From: SAR202 cluster bacterium
GTDB lineage: Bacteria; Chloroflexota; Dehalococcoidia; Lucifugimonadales; GCA-2712585
Direction: 5' to 3'
DNA: 43,433 nucleotides
NCBI GenBank assembly: GCA_016872285.1
Contig: VGZZ01000021.1
Location: 1 to 43,433 of the forward strand
A program made the translations under genes and the position numbers. The notes beneath the pieces are model-generated. The model searched no databases, was not told the DNA's origin, and was given only the letters and a program-made list of their open reading frames with translations. Of the stretch, positions 12,415-17,654 are shown piece after piece. Positions within the stretch are counted from its first letter, which is position 1, and every line of letters starts with the position of its first letter.

Positions 12415-12509
12415 CTCCATCCACCCCAACGCGTAACCTGCCGCCCGTAGGCCCTTCCGCGCGTAATGGCACGAAAGGCCAGGTGGCGCTAGGGCTGCAG
12501 CCGTCTTAT

Positions 12510-12515
12510 TATAAT
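12510..12515 (+). promoter_or_regulatory. -10 element upstream of the cyclic-nucleotide-binding gene
   Basis: A perfect TATAAT places the transcription start near 12522. The -35 region 17 bases upstream is weak. If real, this excludes the in-frame TTG/GTG starts at or before 12483 and supports the ATG at 12588. Confidence 0.4.
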
Positions 12516-12570
12516 ATGCCGCCAGGGCTCACATCCCCATTATGTCAGACCTTGGCGGCGACTTCGCCAC

Positions 12571-12583
12571 GGGGGGGGGGGGG
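12571..12583 (+). repeat. 13-base G homopolymer before a start codon
   Basis: Thirteen consecutive G end 4 bases before the ATG at 12588, where a ribosome-binding site is expected. G tracts of this length are prone to slippage in replication and also in sequencing, so the exact count is uncertain. Confidence 0.85.
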
Positions 12584-12587
12584 ATTC

Positions 12588-13064
12588 ATGGCCTTCATCG
12601 ACTATCTGGCCAAATCTAGTTTGTTCCACGGGCTTCCTGAGGAATATCTGAATTGGCTAACCCCCTGCTGTCGGGAAAAATTCTTTCAGCAGCACCACCA
12701 GCTTTTTAAGGAAGGCGACGTAGCTGATACGCTGTATGTGATAACGTCCGGCCAGGTGGTGCTGGAAATGACGGTTACGAGTTCCCTGCGGCATTTCAAG
12801 GAGACTATCGCCATTACTTCTGTGGGCCCGCCGCATCCCATAGCCGAAAGGGCGTTAGTAGCCCCGTATCGATATGCCTTCTCCGCCAGGGCGGTATTGG
12901 ACACCTCCTGCGTGGCGATCGACTGCGTTGGTTTGCGAGAAAGGATGGACTCGGACCATTATTTAGGCAGCGTGATTAGAAAAAATCTACTGCAGATCCT
13001 GTCGGAGAGGCTCCAGCAGACCAGAGAAGTCCTGGCGTATGAAAGAGCCACGCGGCTGATCTGA
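12588..13064 (+). CDS. Cyclic nucleotide-binding domain protein
   Basis: 158 aa from ATG 12588. The cNMP-binding fold is seen from residue 5: FHGLPEEYLNWLTPCCREKFF, then the phosphate-cassette-like region HHQLFKEGDVADTLYVITSGQVVLEM, and further strands ending CVAIDCVGLRERM. The last helices (SVIRKNLLQILSERLQQTREV) resemble the CAP dimerisation helix, but there is no DNA-binding HTH, so it is not a complete CRP regulator. The phosphate-binding cassette is degenerate (ISSVGPPHPIAERALVAPYRYA-like, without the classical GE...R-A pattern intact), so nucleotide binding is uncertain. The only candidate ribosome site is the poly-G tract. Confidence 0.75.
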   Translation: MAFIDYLAKSSLFHGLPEEYLNWLTPCCREKFFQQHHQLFKEGDVADTLYVITSGQVVLEMTVTSSLRHFKETIAITSVGPPHPIAERALVAPYRYAFSARAVLDTSCVAIDCVGLRERMDSDHYLGSVIRKNLLQILSERLQQTREVLAYERATRLI

Positions 13065-13722: not shown

Positions 13723-16065
13723 CTAAGGCTTGACCTCCACAGCGTCGCAGCCGAAGAAGGTGTGCCAGTTGTTGTCGGATCCCAGATAAGACCCGACGAC
13801 ACAGACCTTGGTGGTGTTCTTATGGACTCCTGAGCTGGACACGCCGAAGTGCAGGACCATGTCCAGGTCGCCGTCCTTCTTCTTATCGTCCAGCTCGTGA
13901 GTGTCCTTTACGAAGTCCTTAGCGGGAGATGGCGATGAGCCGCCGCCGTTGTTCAGGGTTTCCTGGGTGCCAAACCGCGTGGTGGCAAAGTCCACCTTGG
14001 TTGCATTAAAGGCTATGGGTAGGCCGTATTCCCCGGCTGACGTTGTCAGGATAGCTACTGGGAACTTCTGATTGCTGTTGGGATTGATGAAGTTCTTATC
14101 GTTGCCGGGGCGGAAGTTGATGGCGACGGGGGTTACGCATTCGATAACACGGACGACCTCTACGCTGTTGTTGGAAGCGTTCGGGTCTTCGACGTGCTGG
14201 TCCACCGCCGCGATGCTATTGGTAAACTTGAGCTCGTGCTGGCTGGGCTCCAGGCACTCGAAATCGAAGACCTCGGCGATCTCCCTATCGACACTTACCG
14301 CCAGGTCCAGGGCTTTGAACTGTACCGTAATGGTGGCGGGCCCTTCCGCTTCCACTACAGTCCCGGCGGGCTGGTTGTTCAGCACCACTTGCGGCTCGCC
14401 TGTCTTGTCTATAACGATTGTCGCGGGGGCCTCTTGAGCGCCGACGTGGATGGAGCCTTTTATTCCTTCGGGGATGACCATGCTGCGCTCAACGTTTGCG
14501 TCCACGGGGTCAGAATAGAGGTCGTTTACGGTGTCGCCGAAGTTGTGCAGGGTCTTGGTGGTGGAGAAGACGAAGGGCTGGCCCACCAGGATTTCGCCCA
14601 GCTCAGCGCTGTCCAGTTCCGAGAAGTCCCACCCGACGACGGCCAGGTCAGCCTGGGCGATGACGGCCAGGTCCAGGGAAGCGACGCCGTCGTTGTTGCT
14701 GAGGTTGGGCTCTACAACGTTGGGGTTGGCGGAGTTAATTTCGCTTGCAATCTCGAAGCCGTGGAAGCTGGGCTGCGAGCATTCGATGATTAGGTTTCTC
14801 TCGACCACCACCAGGTTGCCCTGGGCCATAGCGGGCACAATCTCGCTTGCGTCCTCAGGGGCGATCTGGCAATCAGGGGAGGCTGAGGCTACGCGCACCA
14901 GCTTGCCGTCGATGACGTCGGCGGGGCCGTTGTTGCGCATAGCGACCCGTACCGTGACCTGTACAGGCGTGTTCACTGGGATCTCGTCCGGAGCATCCAC
15001 CATGGTGGTGCTGGTGATCTGAAGGTCGGCCTCGCAGGCGGCCCAGGACTCCAAGGCGGCGCGAATCTCCTCTCGGAAAAGCTCTACGCCTGCGGGGCGG
15101 ATTCCCATGAAGCCGCCGTCAATGCTGTCGGCTTTGTGAATGAAGGCGCCGTAGACGTACTCCTGAATTTCGGTCTCGCAGGTGACAGTATCCTTCCACG
15201 GCACCTGCGCCCAGCCCGCGACCGTGCGGTTCTCACCGTCACTGAGAGTGTAGCTGCCGGCCTTGTTCGCCGACTGCCTTTGCGACTTGAAACTGGCTAT
15301 CGACGCGGCGCTGAGGCTCATGCCGGCGGCCTCGGTGTCGATGATCCCGTTGAAAGTGCCGTTGTCCTGGGTCATGAGCGAGAAGGCCGATGCCCTATTG
15401 GCGTTGTCCAGGAACCCGGTGGCGACCGACTCGTACATCTTGCCACCGTCCACCAGGGTTAACTGGTTGGGGTTAGCCAGGGCGTTGGCACCGCAGCCGA
15501 TGAGGTGGTTGAGGGCGGTGTCGTCCATATCGAAAGTGTCGCGGGTGTTATTAATGCTGGCGTCGCCGAAGAAGTCCCGCATGGCCTGGGTCCATCGGTT
15601 GTCGGAGGGACCCATCATTTGCTGGAGGCCGTTCTGAAGGGTGTCGGTCCCCGGCAACGTCGAAACGTCCGGGCAGCTGGTCCCTGGCGGCGGGCTGTTG
15701 TTGTAGTTGGCAGGGCCGGCAAACCAGGGAACCTGGGTAGCCAGGGTTACCACATCGCCGTCAATGACGGCCCCATCCTGGACCTGCCGCATAGCGTGGA
15801 AGTGAATCAGCGCTTTGATGGTGCTGGCAGGCTCAAAGATGAAGGACTCGTTATTAGCGGCAATAACTGACCCATTTACCTCTTTCAGATATACGCCCAC
15901 CGTTCCATTGGTTGCGGCATCATCCAAAATCTGGCGCACCCGGTCCTCTGGGTCGGCGGCGGATGCTGTGGGAGCGGCCAGCGCCACCCCCAGCAGGGCC
16001 GCCAGCAAAGGGAGCCAGGAAATTGGCGCGAGTTTGCGGCCACGCAGAGTTCTTAACGTTTTCAT
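13723..16065 (-). CDS. Secreted multidomain protein: class A beta-lactamase-like domain plus CARDB-like repeats
   Basis: 780 aa from the ATG at 16065, chosen because an AGGAG site precedes it and a signal peptide starts there; the open frame to 16233 looks non-coding. The signal peptide ends near ASA/ADP at about 37. Residues 39-345 resemble a class A serine beta-lactamase or DD-peptidase: STIK (Ser81, Lys84), SDN (154-156), an omega-loop-like DTALN (182-186) and KAGS (268-271). In class A enzymes the residue four before that Asn is the deacylating Glu166; here it is Asp182. Residues about 345-640 hold CARDB-like Ig modules (MRNNGPADVIDGKLVRV, DPNASNNSVEVV). The C-terminus (INFRPGNDKNFINPNSN, FPVAILTT, GDLDMVLHF) matches a module common in extracellular proteins. 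It is the second gene of an operon with the VWA gene. Confidence 0.85.
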   Translation of the reverse strand: MKTLRTLRGRKLAPISWLPLLAALLGVALAAPTASAADPEDRVRQILDDAATNGTVGVYLKEVNGSVIAANNESFIFEPASTIKALIHFHAMRQVQDGAVIDGDVVTLATQVPWFAGPANYNNSPPPGTSCPDVSTLPGTDTLQNGLQQMMGPSDNRWTQAMRDFFGDASINNTRDTFDMDDTALNHLIGCGANALANPNQLTLVDGGKMYESVATGFLDNANRASAFSLMTQDNGTFNGIIDTEAAGMSLSAASIASFKSQRQSANKAGSYTLSDGENRTVAGWAQVPWKDTVTCETEIQEYVYGAFIHKADSIDGGFMGIRPAGVELFREEIRAALESWAACEADLQITSTTMVDAPDEIPVNTPVQVTVRVAMRNNGPADVIDGKLVRVASASPDCQIAPEDASEIVPAMAQGNLVVVERNLIIECSQPSFHGFEIASEINSANPNVVEPNLSNNDGVASLDLAVIAQADLAVVGWDFSELDSAELGEILVGQPFVFSTTKTLHNFGDTVNDLYSDPVDANVERSMVIPEGIKGSIHVGAQEAPATIVIDKTGEPQVVLNNQPAGTVVEAEGPATITVQFKALDLAVSVDREIAEVFDFECLEPSQHELKFTNSIAAVDQHVEDPNASNNSVEVVRVIECVTPVAINFRPGNDKNFINPNSNQKFPVAILTTSAGEYGLPIAFNATKVDFATTRFGTQETLNNGGGSSPSPAKDFVKDTHELDDKKKDGDLDMVLHFGVSSSGVHKNTTKVCVVGSYLGSDNNWHTFFGCDAVEVKP

Positions 16066-16187
16066 TATCTTCACTCCTGACAATTTTGTCCTGACATAAA
16101 ATTTTTCGTCTAGGCCGTCCGGGACCTTCAGTTGAGTCCCGGCAAGATATAGTCCAATCCCCTGCTGTGTCCGCTGCGTCACTATGT

Positions 16188-16238: not shown

Positions 16239-17654
16239 TTATTTAGGAGGAGGGGGAACCTTGCAGCTAACAACCGTGGACTTATTGCCGGAAGCGTCCA
16301 CCGCGTAAACGCCGGCGTCGCCCTTGCCTTTGATGTGGTATTCCACTTCGCCGGCCATGGGGGAAGCGCTGGGTGTGACGCCAGGAGCCTGGGTGTATTT
16401 GATGTCGGTGTCGCTGGGATAGGGCCCGAATACCGTGCCCGTGCCCATATCTACGACGAACACCTGTGGACTAGCGTCTACGTTGTCTTTAGCTGAGATG
16501 CGGTAGAAGCCGTCAGGGTTCTGGCCGCTCTTGGGGTTGTTGCCGGCGTTAGGAATGTGCTTGCCGCTGGGGTTATGGGTGGGAGTGCAGGCAACGGCGG
16601 GAGGCGTAACGTCCGCAATGTGGATGGTCTTGGTCTCCATGATGACCGCGCCGCTGGCGTCAGTCATAGGCTCGCCATTGATGGTGGCCCAGTCGTTGCA
16701 GGTATAGGTTTTGCCCTGTTCGGCATCGGCGGCTGCGGTAATTGTCTCGGTGAAGACTGCATGATCGCCGCTCTGGACCGTCTGGCTGGCGGGATTGAAG
16801 GTGGTGCTGATGGGGGCCGCGCAGTCGCTGACCATGGCGACCTCGACATCGATGGCCTGGAGGGCATCAATGATGGCATCCGCCACCTCGGCCTCGTTGA
16901 CGCCTGAGCGGAATATGCCGCCGGTGGCGTCGGCGATAGCCTGGGCCTGCCCGCTGGAGTTTAGCTGGTTAGCGCCGACTGATAGCGCAATCACAATGAT
17001 GGGGGCGTTGGACCCATCAGTAGTGAGGTCGGCGATGGTGGAAGCCAGGGTATGGCCGCCGCTGGGGTCATGGCCCGGCGCGTCGCCAAACCATACAATG
17101 ACGCGGGTGGAGCCGGGGCGGAATGCTGGATCATTGGTGACGACAGACGGGTCCGCCATTTCCGACAAAGCATTCAGCTGGGCTTCGGGAAAGTCGCCGC
17201 CGCCTGAGGCGACCCATGCGTTGATGCCGGCCTGTACCAAAAGCTCGTCGCCGGTCACGGTCTGGTTTAGCTTATAGGCAAAGGCGTCTGTGAAGTCCTT
17301 GTATTCTGCAACGCAGAATTGGGCGTCTGGAGACTCCGCCTGAACAGCATCTATTATGTTCTGTGCGTTGGCCTTGACGTTGTTTATGGCCCCGCCCATG
17401 CTTCCGGTGGTGTCTGCCAGGAAGCAGATGTCGGCAAGAGGCGCTATTTCCGGCGTGTGTACCGTCTTTTCGATGTCAACGCTTTCGCCGGGCTTGAGCG
17501 TTACCTCTACGGAGGCGGGTGTCAGCTCGGGGCCACTGTGGGCCGCCACGGGCAGCACCATCAAGAGCATCGCCACCAGGGCTGCCATAACGACAAAGCC
17601 ACTGGAGATGCCCCACCTTATTCTTTTTTTGGAGACACTTGAAAAGCTATTCAT
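16239..17654 (-). CDS. Secreted von Willebrand factor A domain protein
   Basis: 471 aa. An N-terminal signal peptide or anchor (about residues 12-38) ends near AAHS. The VWA domain spans about 74-265 with the metal-site motif DTTGSMG (Asp81, Thr83, Ser85), a Thr variant of DxSxS. Also present are the integrin-beta-like GGGDFPEAQLNAL and a distal WFGDAPGHD. After the VWA come a beta-sandwich (about 265-350), a linker, and a C-terminal domain (FYRISAKDNVDASPQVFVVD) with Ig-like character ending in a proline stretch. Such proteins usually bind ligands in a metal-dependent way at the cell surface. There is no sortase motif or C-terminal membrane helix. An AGGAG site precedes the start; the beta-lactamase-like gene follows on the same strand. 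Confidence 0.88.
   Translation of the reverse strand: MNSFSSVSKKRIRWGISSGFVVMAALVAMLLMVLPVAAHSGPELTPASVEVTLKPGESVDIEKTVHTPEIAPLADICFLADTTGSMGGAINNVKANAQNIIDAVQAESPDAQFCVAEYKDFTDAFAYKLNQTVTGDELLVQAGINAWVASGGGDFPEAQLNALSEMADPSVVTNDPAFRPGSTRVIVWFGDAPGHDPSGGHTLASTIADLTTDGSNAPIIVIALSVGANQLNSSGQAQAIADATGGIFRSGVNEAEVADAIIDALQAIDVEVAMVSDCAAPISTTFNPASQTVQSGDHAVFTETITAAADAEQGKTYTCNDWATINGEPMTDASGAVIMETKTIHIADVTPPAVACTPTHNPSGKHIPNAGNNPKSGQNPDGFYRISAKDNVDASPQVFVVDMGTGTVFGPYPSDTDIKYTQAPGVTPSASPMAGEVEYHIKGKGDAGVYAVDASGNKSTVVSCKVPPPPK

Follow-up and report, generated by a model that had tools for sequence, protein, structure and literature searches.

A gene in the genome of a SAR202 cluster bacterium raises the question of what a secreted protein with a class A beta-lactamase fold does in a cell that appears to make no peptidoglycan, and whether its active site uses, as a preliminary description of the locus had claimed, an aspartate in place of the deacylating base Glu166. 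The window analysed, 43,433 nucleotides long, is contig C21 of a host genome of 2.6 Mb that is 95.6% complete. An uninterrupted open reading frame with an ATG start runs from 16065 to 13723 on the minus strand (as do all P0001 features below) and encodes P0001, a protein of 780 amino acids; an AGGAG Shine-Dalgarno sequence, read directly from the DNA, lies 8 nucleotides upstream of the ATG (16074..16078). This frame, a PF13354 match and the dN/dS ratio led us to annotate 13723..16065 as the coding sequence of a putative secreted class A-fold serine hydrolase. Residues 1–36 (15958..16065) read as a Sec-type signal peptide with a basic n-region, a hydrophobic core and an ASA-AD junction, and P0001 is thus probably exported and acts outside the cell.

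The gene resembles its surroundings, and a phage or plasmid origin was rejected. Its GC3 of 0.77 resembles that of its neighbours (0.72–0.86), the genes around it are ordinary chromosomal ones, and searches of viral contigs, phages and plasmids gave zero matches. The next gene upstream (16239–17654, minus strand) encodes a secreted protein with a VWA_4 domain, and the two may be co-located surface proteins. Elsewhere in the window, a run of about ten Gs (12574–12583) lies in the start region of a cNMP-binding open reading frame (12483–13064) and makes its real start unsure. Compared with its nearest relative, L021, the P0001 gene has a dN/dS of about 0.17–0.22, with synonymous sites near saturation; it is under purifying selection.

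Residues 37–343 (15037..15957) form the catalytic domain. They score 34.2 bits with Pfam PF13354 (Beta-lactamase2), whose cut-off is 22, and the AF2 model of this domain has a pLDDT of 94.2. Its structural neighbours share the class A/PBP-A fold with Z scores of 23–25, including PBP-A (24.1), LRA-5 (24.3) and 4EWF (about 24). As neighbours within one Z unit of each other were treated as tied, the fold alone does not pick between PBP-A or LRA-5 and true lactamases. A PDB search with the single P0001 sequence returned no match; with the family profile, the closest solved sequence was PBP-A (2e-17), and D-Ala-D-Ala carboxypeptidases were weakly matched as well.

The class A motifs were described as intact and in order, and our reading of the translation agrees. 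They are Ser81-Thr-Ile-Lys84, which would supply the nucleophile and general base (Ambler 70–73; 15814..15825), Ser154-Asp-Asn156 (Ambler 130–132; 15598..15606) and Lys268-Ala-Gly, the start of Lys268-Ala-Gly-Ser-Tyr272 (Ambler 234–238; 15250..15264). The first two are as in active class A enzymes, S70-x-x-K73 and S130-D-N132; the third departs from K234-[ST]235-G in having alanine at 235. P0001 also scores only 12.1 bits against the 200-bit cut-off of the NCBIfam class A model NF033103.

The letters DTALN that prompted the aspartate claim are likewise present in the translation, starting at Asp182 (15520..15522). Their position was determined with HMMER alignments to PBP-A, the GNCA ancestral lactamase and TEM-1 and an hhalign alignment to TEM-1, using a family profile of 28 rows that represent 27 proteins, one of them as two pieces. 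All four alignments set Asp182 at Ambler 159, and those that reach through the loop place Ile189 (15499..15501) at 166. In the TEM-1 pairing, G-M-D-D182-T-A-L-N-H-L-I189 lies on G156-D-H-V159-T160-R-L-D-R164-W165-E166, the first residue of this stretch being Gly in the relatives and Asp179 in P0001. The family consensus G-m-t-s-T-s-l-n-h-k-i falls on G-L-E-N151-T-V-I-N-N-P-L158 of PBP-A, making Leu158 the counterpart of Ile189, and G-m-t-s-T-s-l-n-h falls on G-D-D-V-T-R-L-D-R of GNCA. By alignment, Asp182, Thr183, His187 and Ile189 thus correspond to positions 159, 160, 164 and 166.

Spacing and the predicted helices agree with this register. Thr183 lies 29 residues after Ser154, and Thr160 of TEM-1 lies 30 after Ser130; Asp182, by comparison, follows Ser154 by 28 residues, whereas Glu166 follows Ser130 by 36. 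Helices of the TEM enzyme span residues 132–142 and 145–154. The AF2 helices at 156–166 and 168–177 of P0001 match them, leaving 12 residues to Ile189, the same number as to Glu166.

The variability of the site points the same way. Position 182 is Asp in seven family sequences, Ser in seven, Asn in five, Gly in four, Lys in two and Gln and His in one each; position 189 is Ile in 18, Leu in three, Phe in two and Ser, Pro, Val and Ala in one each, and none of the 27 has an acid at 166. The signature E166-x-x-[LIVM]-N170 was found neither in P0001, which has no Asn170, nor in any relative, with TEM as a positive control. That a natural aspartate serves as a weak deacylating base at 166 is consequently extremely unlikely: D-T-A-L-N does look like E-P-E-L-N, and Asp182 is retained in L014, L015 and L021 as in P0001, but the alignments and the exchange of Asp for Ser, Asn, Gly, Lys, Gln or His among relatives argue against it, and for Asp182 to equal Glu166, seven residues would have to be missing between the omega loop and helix 6. 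Alignment and variability also led us to reject Asp182 as a catalytic base altogether. Another candidate, the almost invariant Glu245, was discarded as a substitute base on finding Val there in three relatives.

The premise of a naturally occurring Glu166-to-Asp enzyme with slowed deacylation thus falls away, and the literature searched contained no report of a natural E166D class A enzyme. The reader had matched the L-N of DTALN to Leu169-Asn170, when the true motif is T160-x-L162-D163. Reading Ambler 166 by eye is risky, as the conserved T160-x-L-[DN] mimics E166-x-x-L-N. The absence of Glu166 from the predicted protein is nonetheless real at the level of the aligned sequences, although the aspartate claim was a misreading.

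Searches of the class, the phylum and genome contigs yielded relatives at 26 genome-contig loci, mostly from metagenome-assembled genomes (MAGs). They come from Chloroflexota, Acidobacteriota, Cyanobacteriota, Actinomycetota, Planctomycetota, Pseudomonadota, Myxococcota and other phyla, and one from an archaeal contig. Down to 26% identity, nine residues are invariant in 27 of 27 sequences: Ser81, Lys84, Ser154, Asn156, Lys268, Gly270, Tyr272 and two cysteines, Cys131 (15673..15675) and Cys191 in the omega loop (Ambler about 168; 15493..15495), which are probably disulfide partners. Residue 269 (Ambler 235) is Ala in 15, Gly in 11 and Asp in one, never Ser or Thr, so that K-[AG]-G-x-Y forms a family signature. 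Arg280 (Ambler 244) is present in P0001 and in 18 of the 27. The invariance of the catalytic residues across such diverse sequences makes it very unlikely that P0001 has lost catalysis and serves only in binding or as a structural component, and together with purifying selection this invariance indicates a likely hydrolase or transacylase.

Most members carry several WWWYYG repeats upstream of the domain, assigned to BTRD1 (Pfam 'Polyglycine hydrolase-like, structural repeat'); these score over the cut-off in L017 (a Calothrix protein), L025, L028, L033 and L038 and slightly under it in L022, L026 and L031. Some members have dockerin, Ig or Calx-beta modules at the C-terminal end. P0001 gave no Pfam match to BTRD1 and falls in a five-member clade without it (support 100/100 in a tree that is midpoint-rooted only); a search with the full protein gave no close relative in 39 other genomes of the same family and order. 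Within this clade, L015 (2785–3879) sits on a 3.9-kb contig of a Nitrososphaeraceae MAG, where a binning error is possible, next to a cupredoxin-like gene of similarly low GC3. The nearest full-length relative, L021 (3893–6231, also from a MAG), has a frame change near codon 165 that may be a sequencing error or mark a pseudogene. The relatives are a coherent, scattered and uncharacterised family, for which the invariant cysteine pair, the K-[AG]-G-x-Y signature and the BTRD1 link are new here.

The C-terminal half of P0001 (residues 344–780; 13726..15036) is 59% identical to that of L021 and comprises one or more beta-rich regions with no known family or confident fold. It had been described as several CARDB-like modules. 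No Pfam family matched it, residues 344–640 giving no CARDB match, and the AF2 model is too poor there to judge by (mean pLDDT 41), with only the first 120 or so residues, which are beta-rich, reaching 57–78; the CARDB description is thus unconfirmed. Residues 641–780 (13726–14145, minus strand) share with L021 the pattern INxRPGNxxNxINPxSN...PVAILTT...DGDLDMVLxF, again with no Pfam family.

That the host is a peptidoglycan-free member of the Dehalococcoidia, raised conditionally in the preliminary description, is well supported. Its genome was searched for a PBP transpeptidase, MurG and a transglycosylase, and none was found; its sole Mur-ligase-like gene has FolC-like features. Genome G764, which carries L021 and whose completeness is unstated, likewise has no transpeptidase or transglycosylase and one weak Mur-ligase match. 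The searches themselves work, since the Dehalococcoidia genome G150, from the same gene clade, gave several Mur-ligase, six transglycosylase and eight transpeptidase matches. The absences fit the peptidoglycan loss reported within Dehalococcoidia (PMC10284905), and the host appears to have no cell-wall peptidoglycan, which would leave a lactamase with no target to protect. The broader proposal, that this secreted protein is a serine acyl-enzyme with a role outside antibiotic resistance, thus survives on other evidence: residue 166 is not an acid, Ala or Gly replaces Ser/Thr235, the NCBIfam class A model gives no match and the host lacks peptidoglycan genes.

With slightly less than even confidence, we propose that P0001 is an extracellular serine endopeptidase, an analogue of polyglycine hydrolase on a class A fold, whose catalytic domain is a working acyl-enzyme without being a beta-lactamase. 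Lys84, together with Ser154 and Lys268, would activate Ser81 to attack an amide (or ester) carbonyl, and deacylation would proceed without a Glu166 base, as it does in PBP-A and other DD-peptidases. A Cys131–Cys191 disulfide probably ties the omega loop to the far rim of the active site, and separate modules, BTRD1 in most relatives and the beta-rich C-terminal modules in P0001, may position the substrate. A hydroxyl at 235 normally helps to bind the C-terminal carboxylate of the substrate. Its loss throughout the family suggests cleavage of internal bonds, that is, endopeptidase action on extracellular proteins or peptides, and the sharing of BTRD1 with a protease would likewise favour protein cleavage. 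Against this, Arg280 in P0001 and 18 of 27 sequences could still allow carboxylate binding, and many relatives occur in hosts that make peptidoglycan.

Two other activities were considered. A DD-carboxy- or endopeptidase secreted to scavenge or compete by attacking fragments of peptidoglycan from other bacteria would suit the retained Arg280, the weak carboxypeptidase matches and the nearest characterised relative, PBP-A, a DD-carboxy/endopeptidase on muropeptides (PMC11189452); we consider it rather unlikely, as the host makes no peptidoglycan of its own, the family never has Ser or Thr at 235, where the terminal carboxylate is normally bound, and an archaeal contig carries one relative. We also consider unlikely a lipase/esterase or transacylase that applies the same acyl-enzyme chemistry to small esters or surface polymers. 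The motifs are compatible with this, and ester substrates are known for serine hydrolases of the beta-lactamase fold, but no search tied P0001 specifically to esterases by sequence or domain, and BTRD1 points to a protease.

For the family as a whole, it is possible but doubtful that the endopeptidase reading extends to an unnamed secreted class A-fold family, spread over many phyla, peptidoglycan-free Dehalococcoidia and an archaeon, that has an omega loop locked by a disulfide and cleaves proteins outside the cell as the class A counterpart of the fungal polyglycine hydrolases. The latter are secreted proteases with a lactamase fold and no lactamase activity (PMC9912923). Their N-domain, as in Fvan-cmp (PDB 7TPU), consists of the same BTRD1 repeats that most P0001 relatives carry. 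P0001 itself has neither this N-domain nor their class C-type catalytic domain, which has Y-x-N and no third motif, whereas P0001 has S154-D-N and PF13354. The link accordingly runs through relatives, and the shared repeats demonstrate module reuse only; both points count against the analogy.

Other known proteins resemble P0001 in the catalytic domain. The Dehalococcoidia PF13354 'serine hydrolases' (for example L001 and L042–L068) belong to the same Pfam family and have E-x-x-[LIVM]-N in 0 of 25 parsed, a count that speaks to this signature and not to Glu166 itself because their omega loops are mostly truncated; most keep KTG, and those read showed neither the cysteine pair nor the extra modules. 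L001 (C15, 1444–2388), a second PF13354 protein of the host genome, has KTG and lacks both an obvious signal peptide and E-x-x-L-N. LRA-5 (PDB 8EO5, metagenomic) resembles P0001 in its fold and in its hydrophobic residue 166, a valine, with which it has no deacylation water and a biologically insignificant lactam turnover (PMC12777564); it differs in keeping KTG and being acylated by lactams, at 13% identity. PBP-A of Thermosynechococcus elongatus (PDB 2J7V, TLL2115) is a proven DD-peptidase without Glu166 (PMC11189452), so that, with LRA-5, a class A fold lacking this residue is already known. P0001 has the PBP-A-like combination of a class A fold with a hydrophobic residue at 166, as well as its SxxK and SxN motifs, and neither protein has E-x-x-L-N. 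At only 17–19% identity to PBP-A, the P0001 family differs in having K-[AG]-G-x-Y, the cysteine pair, extra modules and members in peptidoglycan-free hosts. It would thus put a penicillin-recognising fold to work without peptidoglycan or a use in lactam resistance, with accessory repeats common to a known protease.
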